A stretch of DNA of 64,000 nt. It comes from Bacteroidota bacterium. Its GTDB lineage: Bacteria > Bacteroidota > Ignavibacteria > UBA10030 > UBA6906. Position numbers and translations under genes: made by a program. Shown one piece after another: positions 6,619-61,308 of the stretch; the stretch's first letter is position 1; each line of letters opens with the position of its first letter. The notes below the pieces were generated by a model. It searched no databases. It had not been told where the DNA came from and saw nothing but the letters and a program-made list of their open reading frames with translations. Where the stretch lies: the NCBI GenBank assembly GCA_019637975.1, contig JAHBUR010000002.1, positions 124,001-188,000 on the forward strand, read 5' to 3'.

Positions 6619-7160
6619 TATCTCACCCCTTCAGGGTGATGTGGTGGTGCTCGTATTTCCTGTCTTGGGACTTCGTCCCAAGCTATAGTATCTGACCCCC
6701 GCTAAAAGGTAAGGCACGGCGGGCAAGCCGTTGGGGTCGGATAAGGCAGCGGGTTTTGGATGACCAGCCTGTTGTGGGACGGAGTCCCGAGCTACAGCTT
6801 GTAGCGCGATTCTCCTGAATCGCCCCTTGCGCAAGTTCAGCCCCAACGGGGCGGGATATTATAGCCGGGGACGAAGTCCCCGGACAACATCATAAGAGAA
6901 ACATTCCCACAACCCTGAAGGGGTTGGATACCATCAGCGGTATCTCACCCTTTCGGGGTGATGAGATCGTTCTTCTGTTTTACTGTCTTGGGACTTCGTC
7001 CCAAGCTATAGTATCTGACCCCCGCCAAACCGCCAAAAAAGATCGGCGGTCAGGAAGGTAAGGCACGGCGGGCAAGCCGTTGGGGTCGGGCGCGGATGGC
7101 CTCGTGGCTTTGCAATGCCTGATGGGGGACGGAGTCCCGCGCTACAGGTTGAAACGCGGA
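6619..7160. repeat. two tandem units of a composite palindromic repeat
   Basis: Each unit is a string of small perfect palindromes in fixed order: CACCC-TTCA-GGGTG; TTGGGACTTCGTCCCAA followed by GCTATAGTATCTGAC; GGGACGGAGTCCC; GCCCCAACGGGGC; CCGGGGACGAAGTCCCCGG followed by ACAACATCATAAGAG; CAACCCTGAAGGGGTTGG. Unit 1 is 6619-6948 and a shortened unit 2 runs from 6949 to about 7160. The same string recurs at 9539-9960. Stop codons in all frames make coding unlikely. The spacers are conserved as well as the arms, so this is a dispersed repeat family and not chance hairpins. Confidence 0.75.
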
Positions 7161-28668: not shown

Positions 28669-29445
28669 ATGAATGCAGGTTGCACAATCTATATGAAGAA
28701 CATCTTGAGTTACGGATTCTTCCTTCAACGTCAGCACTTTCCCATTCATCACAAAGCAAAGATGCTCGTGGGGGCAGTCTTTGCAGCTTTTGTTATTGCG
28801 GCAAGGGCTAACGCCCAATTTGAGGGAGTGGTGGAAAGCAAGAATACATCAACGAATGAATTCGGCCAGCCTCATGAATTTGTGATGACGATGTGGATCA
28901 AGAAAGATATGGTGAAGATTGAAACCCGAAGCGAAACGTTCGGCTCGACGATGATCTATCGGACGGACAAGCGACGAATCTGGATGCTCAATGCCGATGA
29001 CAAGTCGTATTTTGAGATTTCACAAGATGAGAAGCCTCAGGAAATGATCGCACCAGGAGGCACAACGGCGAAGTATTCGATCAAGCGAACAGGCAAAACC
29101 AAAACAATAGCCGGATACAAGAGCGAGCAATTTATCATCAAACGTGAAACCGAGCAGACGGAATTGTGGGGGACGAAGAGTCTGAGCCAGCTCGTCACTA
29201 CTCTTTCGAAAGCGCTGGGTCAGGAGCACGCCGAGGCTACCGAAGGCGCTACCGCAGAAGTTATGAAAATGGGAATCTACCCTCTCGCGTCGGCCACGAA
29301 AATCGACGGCGTTCTGGCCGAATCGCAGGAAGTGACCAGAATTGAACAGAAGAAACTCGACCCGCTAATCTTTGAGTTGCCTGCCGGCTACAAGAAGCAG
29401 AAATCCGTTGAGTTTTTCGATCCGGCAGGAGGGGAGAAGAAATAG
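28669..29445 (+). CDS. DUF4412-like periplasmic protein
   Basis: Up to 258 residues. The ATG at 28669 abuts the upstream stop; ATGs at 28693 and 28762 are alternatives, and the last gives the neatest signal peptide (MLVGAVFAAFVIAARANAQ). The mature part (FEGVVESKNTSTNE...MTMWIKKDMVKIETRS...YRTDKRRIWMLNADDKSYFEI...TKTIAGYKSEQFIIK) follows the DUF4412 pattern: a LolA/LppX-like half-barrel suggested by repeated amphipathic strands. A role in envelope lipid or lipoprotein handling is only inferred. A strong terminator follows. Confidence 0.7.
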   Translation: MNAGCTIYMKNILSYGFFLQRQHFPIHHKAKMLVGAVFAAFVIAARANAQFEGVVESKNTSTNEFGQPHEFVMTMWIKKDMVKIETRSETFGSTMIYRTDKRRIWMLNADDKSYFEISQDEKPQEMIAPGGTTAKYSIKRTGKTKTIAGYKSEQFIIKRETEQTELWGTKSLSQLVTTLSKALGQEHAEATEGATAEVMKMGIYPLASATKIDGVLAESQEVTRIEQKKLDPLIFELPAGYKKQKSVEFFDPAGGEKK

Positions 29446-29446
29446 A

Positions 29447-29476
29447 AAAGGCTAACACGACTGTTAGCCTTTCTGT
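29447..29476 (+). terminator. Rho-independent terminator
   Basis: A perfect 11-bp stem AAAGGCTAACA / TGTTAGCCTTT with loop CGAC, then TCTGT. It starts two bases after the DUF4412-like stop and is the best terminator in the window. Confidence 0.85.
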
Positions 29477-29561
29477 ACCAAAGGAGGGACTCCCCGAACG
29501 CAGAGCGTTCGGGGTAAACGAACCTTTACCCCGACACAGTCGGGGCTCACCCGGTTTAGGC
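29475..29561 (-). pseudogene. tRNA-Leu 3' remnant interrupted by palindromic insert
   Basis: Read on the reverse strand, GCCTAAACCGGGTGAG (29561-29546) and GAGTCCCTCCTTTGGTAC (29492-29475) are identical to the variable arm and the T-arm/acceptor 3' end of the intact tRNA-Leu at 29902-29987. Between them lie 53 bases (29493-29545). The tRNA's own GGTTC is retained in the middle, flanked by hairpins (CCCCGAC/GTCGGGG; GGGGTAAA/TTTACCCC; CCGAACGC/GCGTTCGG). The stop codon of the GIY-YIG gene (29556-29558) lies inside the remnant. Confidence 0.8.
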
Positions 29562-29852
29562 TGTCTTTGATGCGATGACCTGTTCCAAAAACCTATGGCC
29601 GGGACCGCTTTTGAGGAACTGTTCTCTTCGTCTGGCTTCGGAACCTGATGGCACTTGTTCAGAGTAGACAAGTACAAAAGGGCGGCGGTGACGGGTTGAA
29701 AATGTTTTGCCGGAATTGTGCTCATTAATCCGCCGCTCGAAATCAGATGTCATGCCAATGTAGAGCTTATGGTCTTTGAGCGACCGAAGAACGTAAACCG
29801 TATATGAGGTACTTTTCTGCAGGTTGGTGGGGAATACTGATTCTTCATCCAC
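29556..29852 (-). CDS. GIY-YIG nuclease of the URI/UPF0213 type, downstream of tRNA-Leu
   Basis: A 98-residue protein with GTG start at 29852. Single catalytic domain: TSYTVYVLRSLKDHKLYIGMT (GIY-YIG as VYV-10-YIG), catalytic-type Arg in FERRINEHN, then TRHRRPFVLVYSEQVPSGSEARRREQFLKSGPGHRFLEQ with the family's Glu helix. Length is normal for stand-alone URI proteins. The last residues (KTA-stop) are encoded by sequence copied from the tRNA-Leu variable arm. Such nucleases nick DNA; here the placement between an intact tRNA and a tRNA remnant suggests a homing or insertion function. A second homologue stands next to tRNA-Ser at 60816. Confidence 0.85.
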   Translation of the reverse strand: MDEESVFPTNLQKSTSYTVYVLRSLKDHKLYIGMTSDFERRINEHNSGKTFSTRHRRPFVLVYSEQVPSGSEARRREQFLKSGPGHRFLEQVIASKTA

Positions 29853-29856
29853 GCCG

Positions 29857-29888
29857 AGGCCCGCCCCGATTTTGGTTCGGGCGGGCCT
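29857..29888 (-). terminator. terminator-like hairpin after tRNA-Leu
   Basis: AGGCCCGCCC-GA, loop ACCAAAA, TC-GGGGCGGGCCT on the reverse strand, 14 bases after the tRNA 3' end and 5 bases before the GIY-YIG start codon. No long T run follows, so it may equally be one of the palindromic repeats. Confidence 0.45.
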
Positions 29889-29901
29889 GTCGGAGCGTAC
29901 G

Positions 29902-29987
29902 TACCAAAGGAGGGACTCGAACCCTCACCCGGTTTAGGCCGGACTGGATTTTGAGTCCAGCGCGTCTACCAATTCCGCCACTTTGGC
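29902..29987 (-). tRNA. tRNA-Leu (anticodon CAA)
   Basis: An 86-base class II cloverleaf on the reverse strand: acceptor GCCAAAG/CTTTGGT, anticodon stem CTGGA/TCCAG around loop CTCAAAA (anticodon CAA, reads UUG), long variable arm GTCCGGCCTAAACCGGGT, T arm GAGGG-TTCGAGT-CCCTC. The 3' CCA is not encoded (discriminator A, then CGT). A sigma70-like promoter lies immediately upstream. Confidence 0.93.
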
Positions 29988-60499: not shown

Positions 60500-60611
60500 G
60501 GAGAGGTGGGTGAGTGGCCGAAACCAGCGGTTTGTCCGTCCCGTTCGATGGTCAAGCTTAGGAACGGGACGAGATCTCGTCACGCAAGGCGTGACGGACT
60601 AAACCGCCGTA
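60500..60611 (+). pseudogene. broken tRNA-Ser copy with palindrome in the anticodon loop
   Basis: Bases 60500-60534 are identical to the first 35 bases of the intact tRNA-Ser (60667). A 64-base palindromic insert (60535-60598, beginning TCCGTC and ending GACGGA) sits between TTTG and CTAA of the anticodon loop. CTAAACCGCCGTA (60599-60611) then resumes the tRNA. The variable arm is lost; CCAAGAGTTTAATTTT just beyond looks like a decayed T arm. Not functional. Confidence 0.85.
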
Positions 60612-60666
60612 TGGTCCAAGAGTTTAATTTTAAGAAGCGAGATTTTCCAGTTCATTGTTTCATTTC

Positions 60667-60759
60667 GGAGAGGTGGGTGAGTGGCCGAAACCAGCGGTTT
60701 GCTAAACCGCCGTAGGGTGTAAAACTCTACCGAGAGTTCGAATCTCTCCCTCTCCGCCA
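60667..60759 (+). tRNA. tRNA-Ser (anticodon GCT)
   Basis: A 93-base class II cloverleaf with encoded CCA: acceptor GGAGAGG/CCTCTCC, D arm GAGTGGCCGAAACC, anticodon stem CGGTT/AACCG with loop TGCTA region (anticodon GCT, reads AGC/AGU), variable arm GTAGGG-TGTAAAA-CTCTAC, T arm GAGAG-TTCGAAT-CTCTC, discriminator G. A strong terminator follows. Broken copies lie on both sides. Confidence 0.95.
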
Positions 60760-60815: not shown

Positions 60816-61139
60816 ATGGCGTATCATGTATACATTTTGTTTTCACGTCTGCATGAGCGGACGTATGTGGGTCAGACAGAAGACCTGGAAAACCGTGTCC
60901 GGCACCATAATGCAGGGCGAGTGCGGTCGACGAAAGCCTACCGGCCTTGGGAGGTTCTGCACAGCGAATCCTACTCGACACGCGCTGAAGCAATGCAACG
61001 GGAGCAATGGTACAAGAGTCCGCAAGGGAGAAGGGCATTGAAAGAGCTTCTCTCTCGGGCGATTGCCTCCAGCGGTTTGTCCGTCCCGTTCGATGGTCAA
61101 GCTCAGGAACGGGACGGGATCTCGTCACGCAAGGCGTGA
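60816..61139 (+). CDS. GIY-YIG nuclease of the URI type, downstream of tRNA-Ser
   Basis: 107 residues from ATG 60816 (TTTGGAGG nine bases upstream). Catalytic core: AYHVYILFSRLHERTYVGQTEDLENRVRHHNAGRV, then STKAYRPWEVLHSESYSTRAEAMQREQWYKSPQGRRALKELL. It is homologous to the protein at 29556. The C-terminal ~24 residues are atypical: from codons AGC GGT TTG on, the frame reads a tRNA-Ser fragment and then the 64-base palindrome, stopping at the palindrome's TGA. Without the palindrome the frame would end at a TAA in the tRNA variable arm. Probably a nuclease of a selfish element targeting tRNA-Ser. Confidence 0.85.
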   Translation: MAYHVYILFSRLHERTYVGQTEDLENRVRHHNAGRVRSTKAYRPWEVLHSESYSTRAEAMQREQWYKSPQGRRALKELLSRAIASSGLSVPFDGQAQERDGISSRKA

Positions 61140-61308
61140 CGGACTAAACCGCCGTAGGGTGTAAAATCCGTCCCGAAGTGATGTACCAGTGTATCGGGGC
61201 GGGATCTGCCGGGTGGATCTTTGTTAGGGACTCTACCGAGAGTTCGCCGTCCCGTACACGGGACGAGCCTCGATCCCAATCGGGATCGGGAATCTCTCCC
61301 TCTCCGCA
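61069..61308 (+). pseudogene. tRNA-Ser 3' remnant interrupted by three palindromic inserts
   Basis: The tRNA-Ser sequence from CCAGCGGTTTG to CCTCTCCGC is present in order but split. Insert 1, 61080-61143 (64 nt), lies in the anticodon loop at the same position as in the 60500 copy and is 62/64 identical to it. Insert 2, 61167-61230 (64 nt), lies at the edge of the variable-arm loop, after TGTAAAA. Insert 3, 61247-61290 (44 nt), lies in the T loop, TTCG|AAT. All tRNA segments between inserts match the intact gene. The first 71 bases overlap the end of the nuclease gene. Confidence 0.88.

Follow-up and report, generated by a model that had tools for sequence, protein, structure and literature searches.

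Why does a gene for a small GIY-YIG nuclease lie between the only tRNA-Leu(CAA) gene of a bacterial genome and a partial copy of that same tRNA? The arrangement was found within the window, that is, the whole stretch of 64,000 nucleotides that was analysed. Its minus-strand order, namely tRNA-Leu(CAA), a hairpin, the GIY-YIG gene and a 3' tRNA-Leu remnant, had been given in a preliminary description and proved to be real, as judged by ARAGORN, Rfam, a PF01541 match (E=1.6e-15) and the alignment of the remnant. The features of the locus are as follows:

29901-29987, minus strand: intact tRNA-Leu(CAA), sole copy in the genome (ARAGORN and Rfam agree)
29858-29888, minus strand: G+C-rich hairpin between tRNA-Leu and the nuclease gene, a likely terminator (from the sequence)
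29556-29852, minus strand: 98-aa GIY-YIG nuclease of the Leu-CAA clade (PF01541)
29475-29561, minus strand: whole 3' tRNA-Leu remnant, three blocks and two hairpin inserts
29546-29561, minus strand: remnant block 1, tRNA-Leu positions 49-64 (alignment)
29525-29545, minus strand: hairpin insert 1, 21 nt, CCCCGACTGTGTCGGGGTAAA; changes in the sister species in the loop only
29519-29524, minus strand: remnant block 2, GGTTCG, tRNA positions about 65-70 (alignment)
29492-29518, minus strand: hairpin insert 2, 27 nt, in the T-loop (GGTTC^G, one-base placement ambiguity)
29475-29491, minus strand: remnant block 3, 3' end of tRNA-Leu, AGTCCCTCCTTTGGTAC (alignment)
29445-29472, minus strand: terminator-like hairpin 3' of the remnant, kept in the sister species

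The remnant comprised tRNA positions 49-64, 65-69 and 70-87, with 39 bases aligned and 0 mismatches. Alignment of the region behind the nuclease stop codon with tRNA-Leu gave a score of 23, while the best of 2,000 dinucleotide shuffles reached 14; a chance match, which the preliminary description had raised as a concern, does not explain such a score. The 34 matched bases of that description belonged to a real match, but they were not contiguous, being split into three blocks by two hairpin inserts which had been left out. The stop codon TAA was located inside GCCTAAACC, copied from the variable arm of tRNA-Leu, in agreement with its earlier placement. Together with its inserts, the remnant folded far better than shuffled sequences (z -4.1). 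Like the remnant with its terminator-like hairpin at 29445-29472, the tRNA itself is directly followed by a hairpin at this site in two of three element-free relatives (G009 and G006).

The Leu nuclease matched PF01541 with 57.6 bits (cut-off 22.6), which places it in the GIY-YIG superfamily. Its GTG start is uncertain, the starts of relatives lying about 12 codons later. Residues Y20, Y31, G33, R41 and E77 were invariant in the alignment, and the catalytic Y, Y-x-G, R, H and E were conserved among the nucleases; the protein is barely more than its catalytic domain. In comparison with the sister species (G001), the Leu nuclease showed a dN/dS of 0.14, indicating purifying selection. Its dS was 0.59. 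Replacement of the Leu nuclease, read from this high dS, was rejected because the neighbouring host genes were nearly as diverged (0.40-0.51). The Ser(GGA) nuclease reached a dS of 1.44, far above the 0.58 of the adjacent host gene, which suggests replacement and gives indirect support to copying into a cleaved allele by recombination.

A further instance was found in the same window at tRNA-Ser(GCT), where the alignment scored 46 and none of 1,000 shuffles exceeded 13:

60500-60614, plus strand: 5' remnant of tRNA-Ser(GCT), its anticodon loop carrying a hairpin insert of 64 nt
60667-60759, plus strand: intact tRNA-Ser(GCT)
60816-61139, plus strand: GIY-YIG nuclease of the Ser-GCT clade
61069-61307, plus strand: 3' tRNA-Ser remnant, four blocks and three hairpin inserts, its start overlapping the nuclease ORF

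This tRNA is flanked by remnants on both sides, and the anticodon-loop hairpin insert of about 64 nt is alike in the 5' and 3' remnants. Elsewhere in the window, an Acido-Lenti-1 RNA (RF01687) was detected at 6839-6883, with 40.5 bits, barely over the gathering score.

The genome contained seven PF01541 genes, two large (open frames of 639 and 531 aa) and five small. All five small ones were located within about 250 bp of a tRNA gene, namely Cys, Ser(GCT), Leu(CAA), Ser(GGA) and Pro(TGG). Each of these loci held partial tRNA copies, most of which matched the tRNA at 100% identity, and palindromic inserts broke the copies up. The further tRNA/nuclease/remnant triplets anticipated in the preliminary description therefore exist, and other genomes yielded more than 160 additional tRNA-nuclease loci. 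All 43 tRNA genes were recovered. Since each anticodon except CAT occurs once, it is a single-copy, presumably essential tRNA gene that hosts the element and stays whole. The other tRNAs of the genome were without a remnant, except for a hairpin-bearing 3' copy of tRNA-Gly(CCC) with no nuclease; one additional match of the remnant scan, Thr(TGT), was the neighbouring intact tRNA-Thr. This Gly(CCC) ghost locus (L326/L356, contig C15 of this genome, G000) was also seen in G001 (L317/L327).

Across 21 genomes of the order, an unbiased Pfam search gave 62 small GIY-YIG loci for examination. Of these, 36 had a tRNA no more than 300 bp away, and in 36/36 the nearest tRNA was on the same strand. The set was extended with a profile of tRNA-linked proteins (60 genomes) and a pattern scan of named genomes; unlike the Pfam set, the two profile-based sets are biased to tRNA-linked proteins. 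In the extended set, 174 of 256 nuclease matches had a tRNA no more than 400 bp away, with 174 co-oriented and 0 opposite, and 22 of the matches outside this distance were at contig ends. Across 169 distinct loci, from the same order as well as Patescibacteria, Omnitrophota, Elusimicrobia and Flavobacteriaceae, the nearest tRNA was on the nuclease strand without exception. Taxa with such loci included Ignavibacteria, other Bacteroidota (Zunongwangia, Mesonia), Patescibacteria, Omnitrophota, Elusimicrobia and others, and the order-level set covered 23 anticodons. Loci mostly measured 290-480 bp, larger ones being tandem copies or carrying long inserts. Tandem repeats of nuclease and tRNA-Arg(TCG) were observed in Zunongwangia and Mesonia (L276, L277) and recall SegB-driven tRNA amplification. 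The preliminary description named class II tRNAs (Leu and Ser); the architecture is not confined to them and was also found at Asp, Pro, Val, Gly, Cys, Asn, Arg, Ala and other tRNAs. Its mirror image, with a 5' remnant, the nuclease and the intact tRNA, was as common as the form with a 3' remnant.

Where the nuclease was 3' of the tRNA, a 3' remnant usually followed it; where it was 5' of the tRNA, a 5' remnant preceded it. In the 165 loci with sufficient flank, a remnant of the neighbouring tRNA was found on the predicted side in 122, compared with 38/163 on the other side and 1% for the null of tRNAs of other amino acids. These 122 remnants amounted to 4,986 aligned bases with 2.4% mismatch; 71 were mismatch-free, and 88 contained an insert of at least 10 nt. 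Junction positions clustered around the anticodon arm, and a search for strict clade-specific junctions found positions that were not sharp.

In a tree of 55 proteins, the tRNA-linked nucleases clustered by isoacceptor. None of the small GIY-YIG proteins that made up a 20-member clade (99/95) in the same genomes had a tRNA neighbour. For 158 tRNA-linked proteins, 69 changes of isoacceptor label were counted, compared with 129.5 after shuffling (0/200 shuffles as low), so that nuclease phylogeny follows tRNA identity, a relationship that the preliminary description had put forward for testing; the tree rests on 80 columns with many deep forks unresolved, and near-copies add to the clustering. 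The Asp, Pro-GGG, Pro-CGG, Asn, Leu-CAA, Ser-GGA/CGA and Arg clades each extended across several families of the order, and several isoacceptor clades mixed the 5' and 3' forms.

Sites empty in one genome and occupied in another, as expected of free-standing homing genes, were identified at Leu, Asp, Val and Gly(TCC). In G009, G006 and G007, tRNA-Leu(CAA) directly adjoins the same neighbour gene and the element is absent; in the present genome, the position of that neighbour beside the tRNA is taken by the remnant. At the Leu(CAA) site of G002, a remnant with a T-loop insert was found and the nuclease was absent. The Asp, Val and Gly(TCC) sites are empty here and occupied in G001, where the downstream host sequence resumes after the remnant at Asp and Gly, and the upstream host sequence precedes the remnant at Val. 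At Asp, a 34-nt host flank was duplicated along with the tRNA, and at Val the nuclease ORF runs directly into the tRNA, leaving no spacer for a promoter of the tRNA's own. These sister-species comparisons show insertion with partial duplication of a single-copy tRNA. The turnover is considerable: among tRNAs occupied in either sister, the same nuclease clade was present in both only at Leu and Ser(GGA). At the Leu locus of G001, the ancestral-looking CTTACACC was in the tRNA and CCTAAACC in the remnant, opposite to the simplest expectation, so the variable-arm letters do not tell which copy is donor-derived.

The remnants and inserts of the two sisters differed by only a few hairpin-loop bases, next to a spacer that had diverged freely. 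This points to constraint acting on the remnant, or to its tRNA-derived part being homogenised. The idea that remnants are simple decaying scars was weakened by so few loop-base differences while host genes showed a dS of 0.4-0.5.

The inserts were cleanly placed, with no tRNA base lost in the alignments, and 120 inserts favoured loops (28 within stems versus 55.8 expected). Twenty of 23 T-loop inserts occurred directly after GTTC (GTTC^GA). Many 30-nt inserts consisted of two 15-nt hairpins with strong covariation: seven pairs were changed on both sides, with 97.1% pairing (0/500 shuffles). Insert families varied from locus to locus. Exact-pattern copies of the double hairpin were at tRNA loci in 3/3 cases in this genome, and in relatives in many cases and not in some; a double-hairpin search within the window found nothing beyond chance. 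The same inserts also occurred in nuclease-free tRNA fragments, which in one genome are arranged in tandem. Downstream of a tRNA-Val(TAC), in the minus orientation of the locus, five tandem units of about 140 nt were observed (L306 941-1530, G013), each made up of the 3' portion of a tRNA whose T-loop holds a 30-nt double hairpin, and none with a nuclease. In several remnants (L005 1431-1491, L039 and L041), the anticodon stem-loop was swapped for an unrelated perfect hairpin. One double hairpin (L316 1501-1530, G014) was located away from any tRNA, yet between inverted-repeat arms (gggagt...actccc).

The best explanation, to which we assign a probability of roughly three in four, is that these are free-standing, isoacceptor-specific homing endonuclease genes which invade tRNA genes and leave one intact copy. 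A small GIY-YIG nuclease dedicated to one isoacceptor family would cut the tRNA gene of an element-free chromosome, and repair from an element-bearing copy would insert the nuclease gene and duplicate whichever part of the tRNA lies to one side of the break. One complete tRNA would stay, the other part forming the remnant: duplication of the 3' part would yield tRNA, nuclease and 3' remnant, and that of the 5' part would yield 5' remnant, nuclease and tRNA. The nuclease, lying in the tRNA's direction of transcription, is probably co-transcribed with it. Remnants carry, or would acquire, loop hairpins; these may eliminate the cleavage site or prevent the element from being lost by recombination. 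Counting against this reading are the 43 of 165 loci without an above-threshold remnant on the predicted side, the variable-arm letters of the Leu locus, the conservation of the remnant hairpins, unlike simple debris, and, because the protein has little beyond the catalytic domain, the question of how one tRNA gene is recognised.

The constant co-orientation and close spacing of nuclease and tRNA, the overlap of the ORF with the tRNA in the 5' form (L041, L001, L049) and the restriction of sister differences in remnant hairpins to loops would also suit a domesticated role at the RNA level, in which the protein would be a ribonuclease or processing factor, host-derived or selfish, that works on the co-transcribed tRNA, and the remnant would be a tRNA-like control element. 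We consider this improbable: the catalytic residues, like the nearest structures, belong to GIY-YIG enzymes that cut or repair DNA, and the patchy presence at single-copy tRNAs, with sisters differing at most occupied tRNAs, argues against an essential processing role. Decayed integrative elements, in which the remnants would be attachment-site halves of tRNA-targeting integrases and the GIY-YIG gene the last cargo, are very unlikely. A displaced 3' end at a classic integrase target would look alike, but the loci mostly offer space for one gene, 5' remnants are as frequent as 3' remnants, nuclease phylogeny tracks the isoacceptor, and hairpin inserts break up the remnants.

The hairpins themselves raise an alternative in which the double-hairpin inserts would belong to the mobile or driving unit and enter the centres of tRNA hairpins at nuclease-made breaks, with the remnant as a working part of the element. 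The avoidance of stems, the position after GTTC, the covarying hairpin pairs, the nuclease-free fragments with the same inserts, and the remnant stems kept beside diverged spacer are consistent with such a two-part system. It is nevertheless doubtful, since some double-hairpin copies are away from tRNAs, insert families are unlike between loci, and cutting by the nuclease at insertion points is an assumption. Both ideas may also be merged into a single system, which we advance tentatively and at less than even odds, whereby isoacceptor-specific nucleases would open tRNA genes at loop centres, hairpins would insert there, and the hairpin-armoured fragment would be maintained and functional. If so, this fragment could serve as protection from self-cleavage, as a homology arm or as an RNA signal.

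Under the preferred reading of homing genes that invade tRNA genes, genes named merely GIY-YIG nuclease would contain a large and structured family of tRNA parasites spread over many bacterial phyla, with a lineage per isoacceptor. They would provide more than 20 natural nuclease-target pairs for studying DNA recognition by a bare nuclease domain of about 85 residues, an example of a selfish gene living in a single-copy essential gene without splicing, and a possible reason why incomplete tRNA copies and hairpins occur near the tRNA genes of bacteria.

Selfish nucleases that keep a tRNA functional are familiar from bacterial tRNA genes in which group I introns carry homing endonucleases. There, splicing keeps the tRNA, whereas here duplication keeps it whole; no intron family match was found in the window, and tRNA-Leu is uninterrupted. 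The 3' ends of tRNAs are classic integrase targets, and tRNA-targeting integrative elements restore the 3' end, giving one intact tRNA with a displaced end left behind. The present loci differ in lacking an integrase, in being mostly under 0.5 kb and in having the 5' form as commonly as the 3' form; between tRNA and remnant there is space for the nuclease ORF alone. Fungal and other mitochondria contain double-hairpin elements, pairs of short hairpins that are described as mobile in organelle genomes. Their likeness to the inserts is in form only, the latter lying within bacterial tRNA fragments at loop centres. Small stand-alone GIY-YIG proteins of UPF0213 (BH0048, EF2693; 1zg2, 1ywl) share domain and size and were the best solved relatives by sequence profile. 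The main non-tRNA clade of small GIY-YIG proteins in these genomes, which may include UPF0213 proteins, has no tRNA neighbours.

Free-standing GIY-YIG homing genes near tRNAs are already known from phages. The phage homologues were related GIY-YIG genes, with no tRNA beside the two phage examples examined. In the searchable literature, outside which most subscription journals lie, no description of the arrangement in cellular genomes was found; its occurrence on bacterial chromosomes, the nuclease-isoacceptor co-phylogeny, the remnant rule and the conserved hairpin inserts in tRNA loops of remnants are apparently undescribed. SegB of phages T4 and T6 is likewise encoded by a free-standing GIY-YIG gene among same-strand tRNA genes, and its segmental tRNA amplification resembles the tandem nuclease-tRNA units observed here (PMC13096335). 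SegB is reported to cleave inside tRNA genes with a preference for RAWTSGAAC (PMC13096335), the reverse complement of which, GTTCSAWTY, fits the T-loop consensus. SegB differs in its 221 aa, large C-terminal region and phage-borne location. It is reported to be without isotype preference, in contrast to the isoacceptor-tracking family here, and is not known to follow a tRNA-remnant rule. A BLASTP comparison with SegB aligned 20 residues (E=0.049) and gave no Seg-family homology beyond the motif; we claim no Seg membership, and the nucleases would at most work like SegB, which is the closest tested analogue for GIY-YIG cutting inside tRNA genes.
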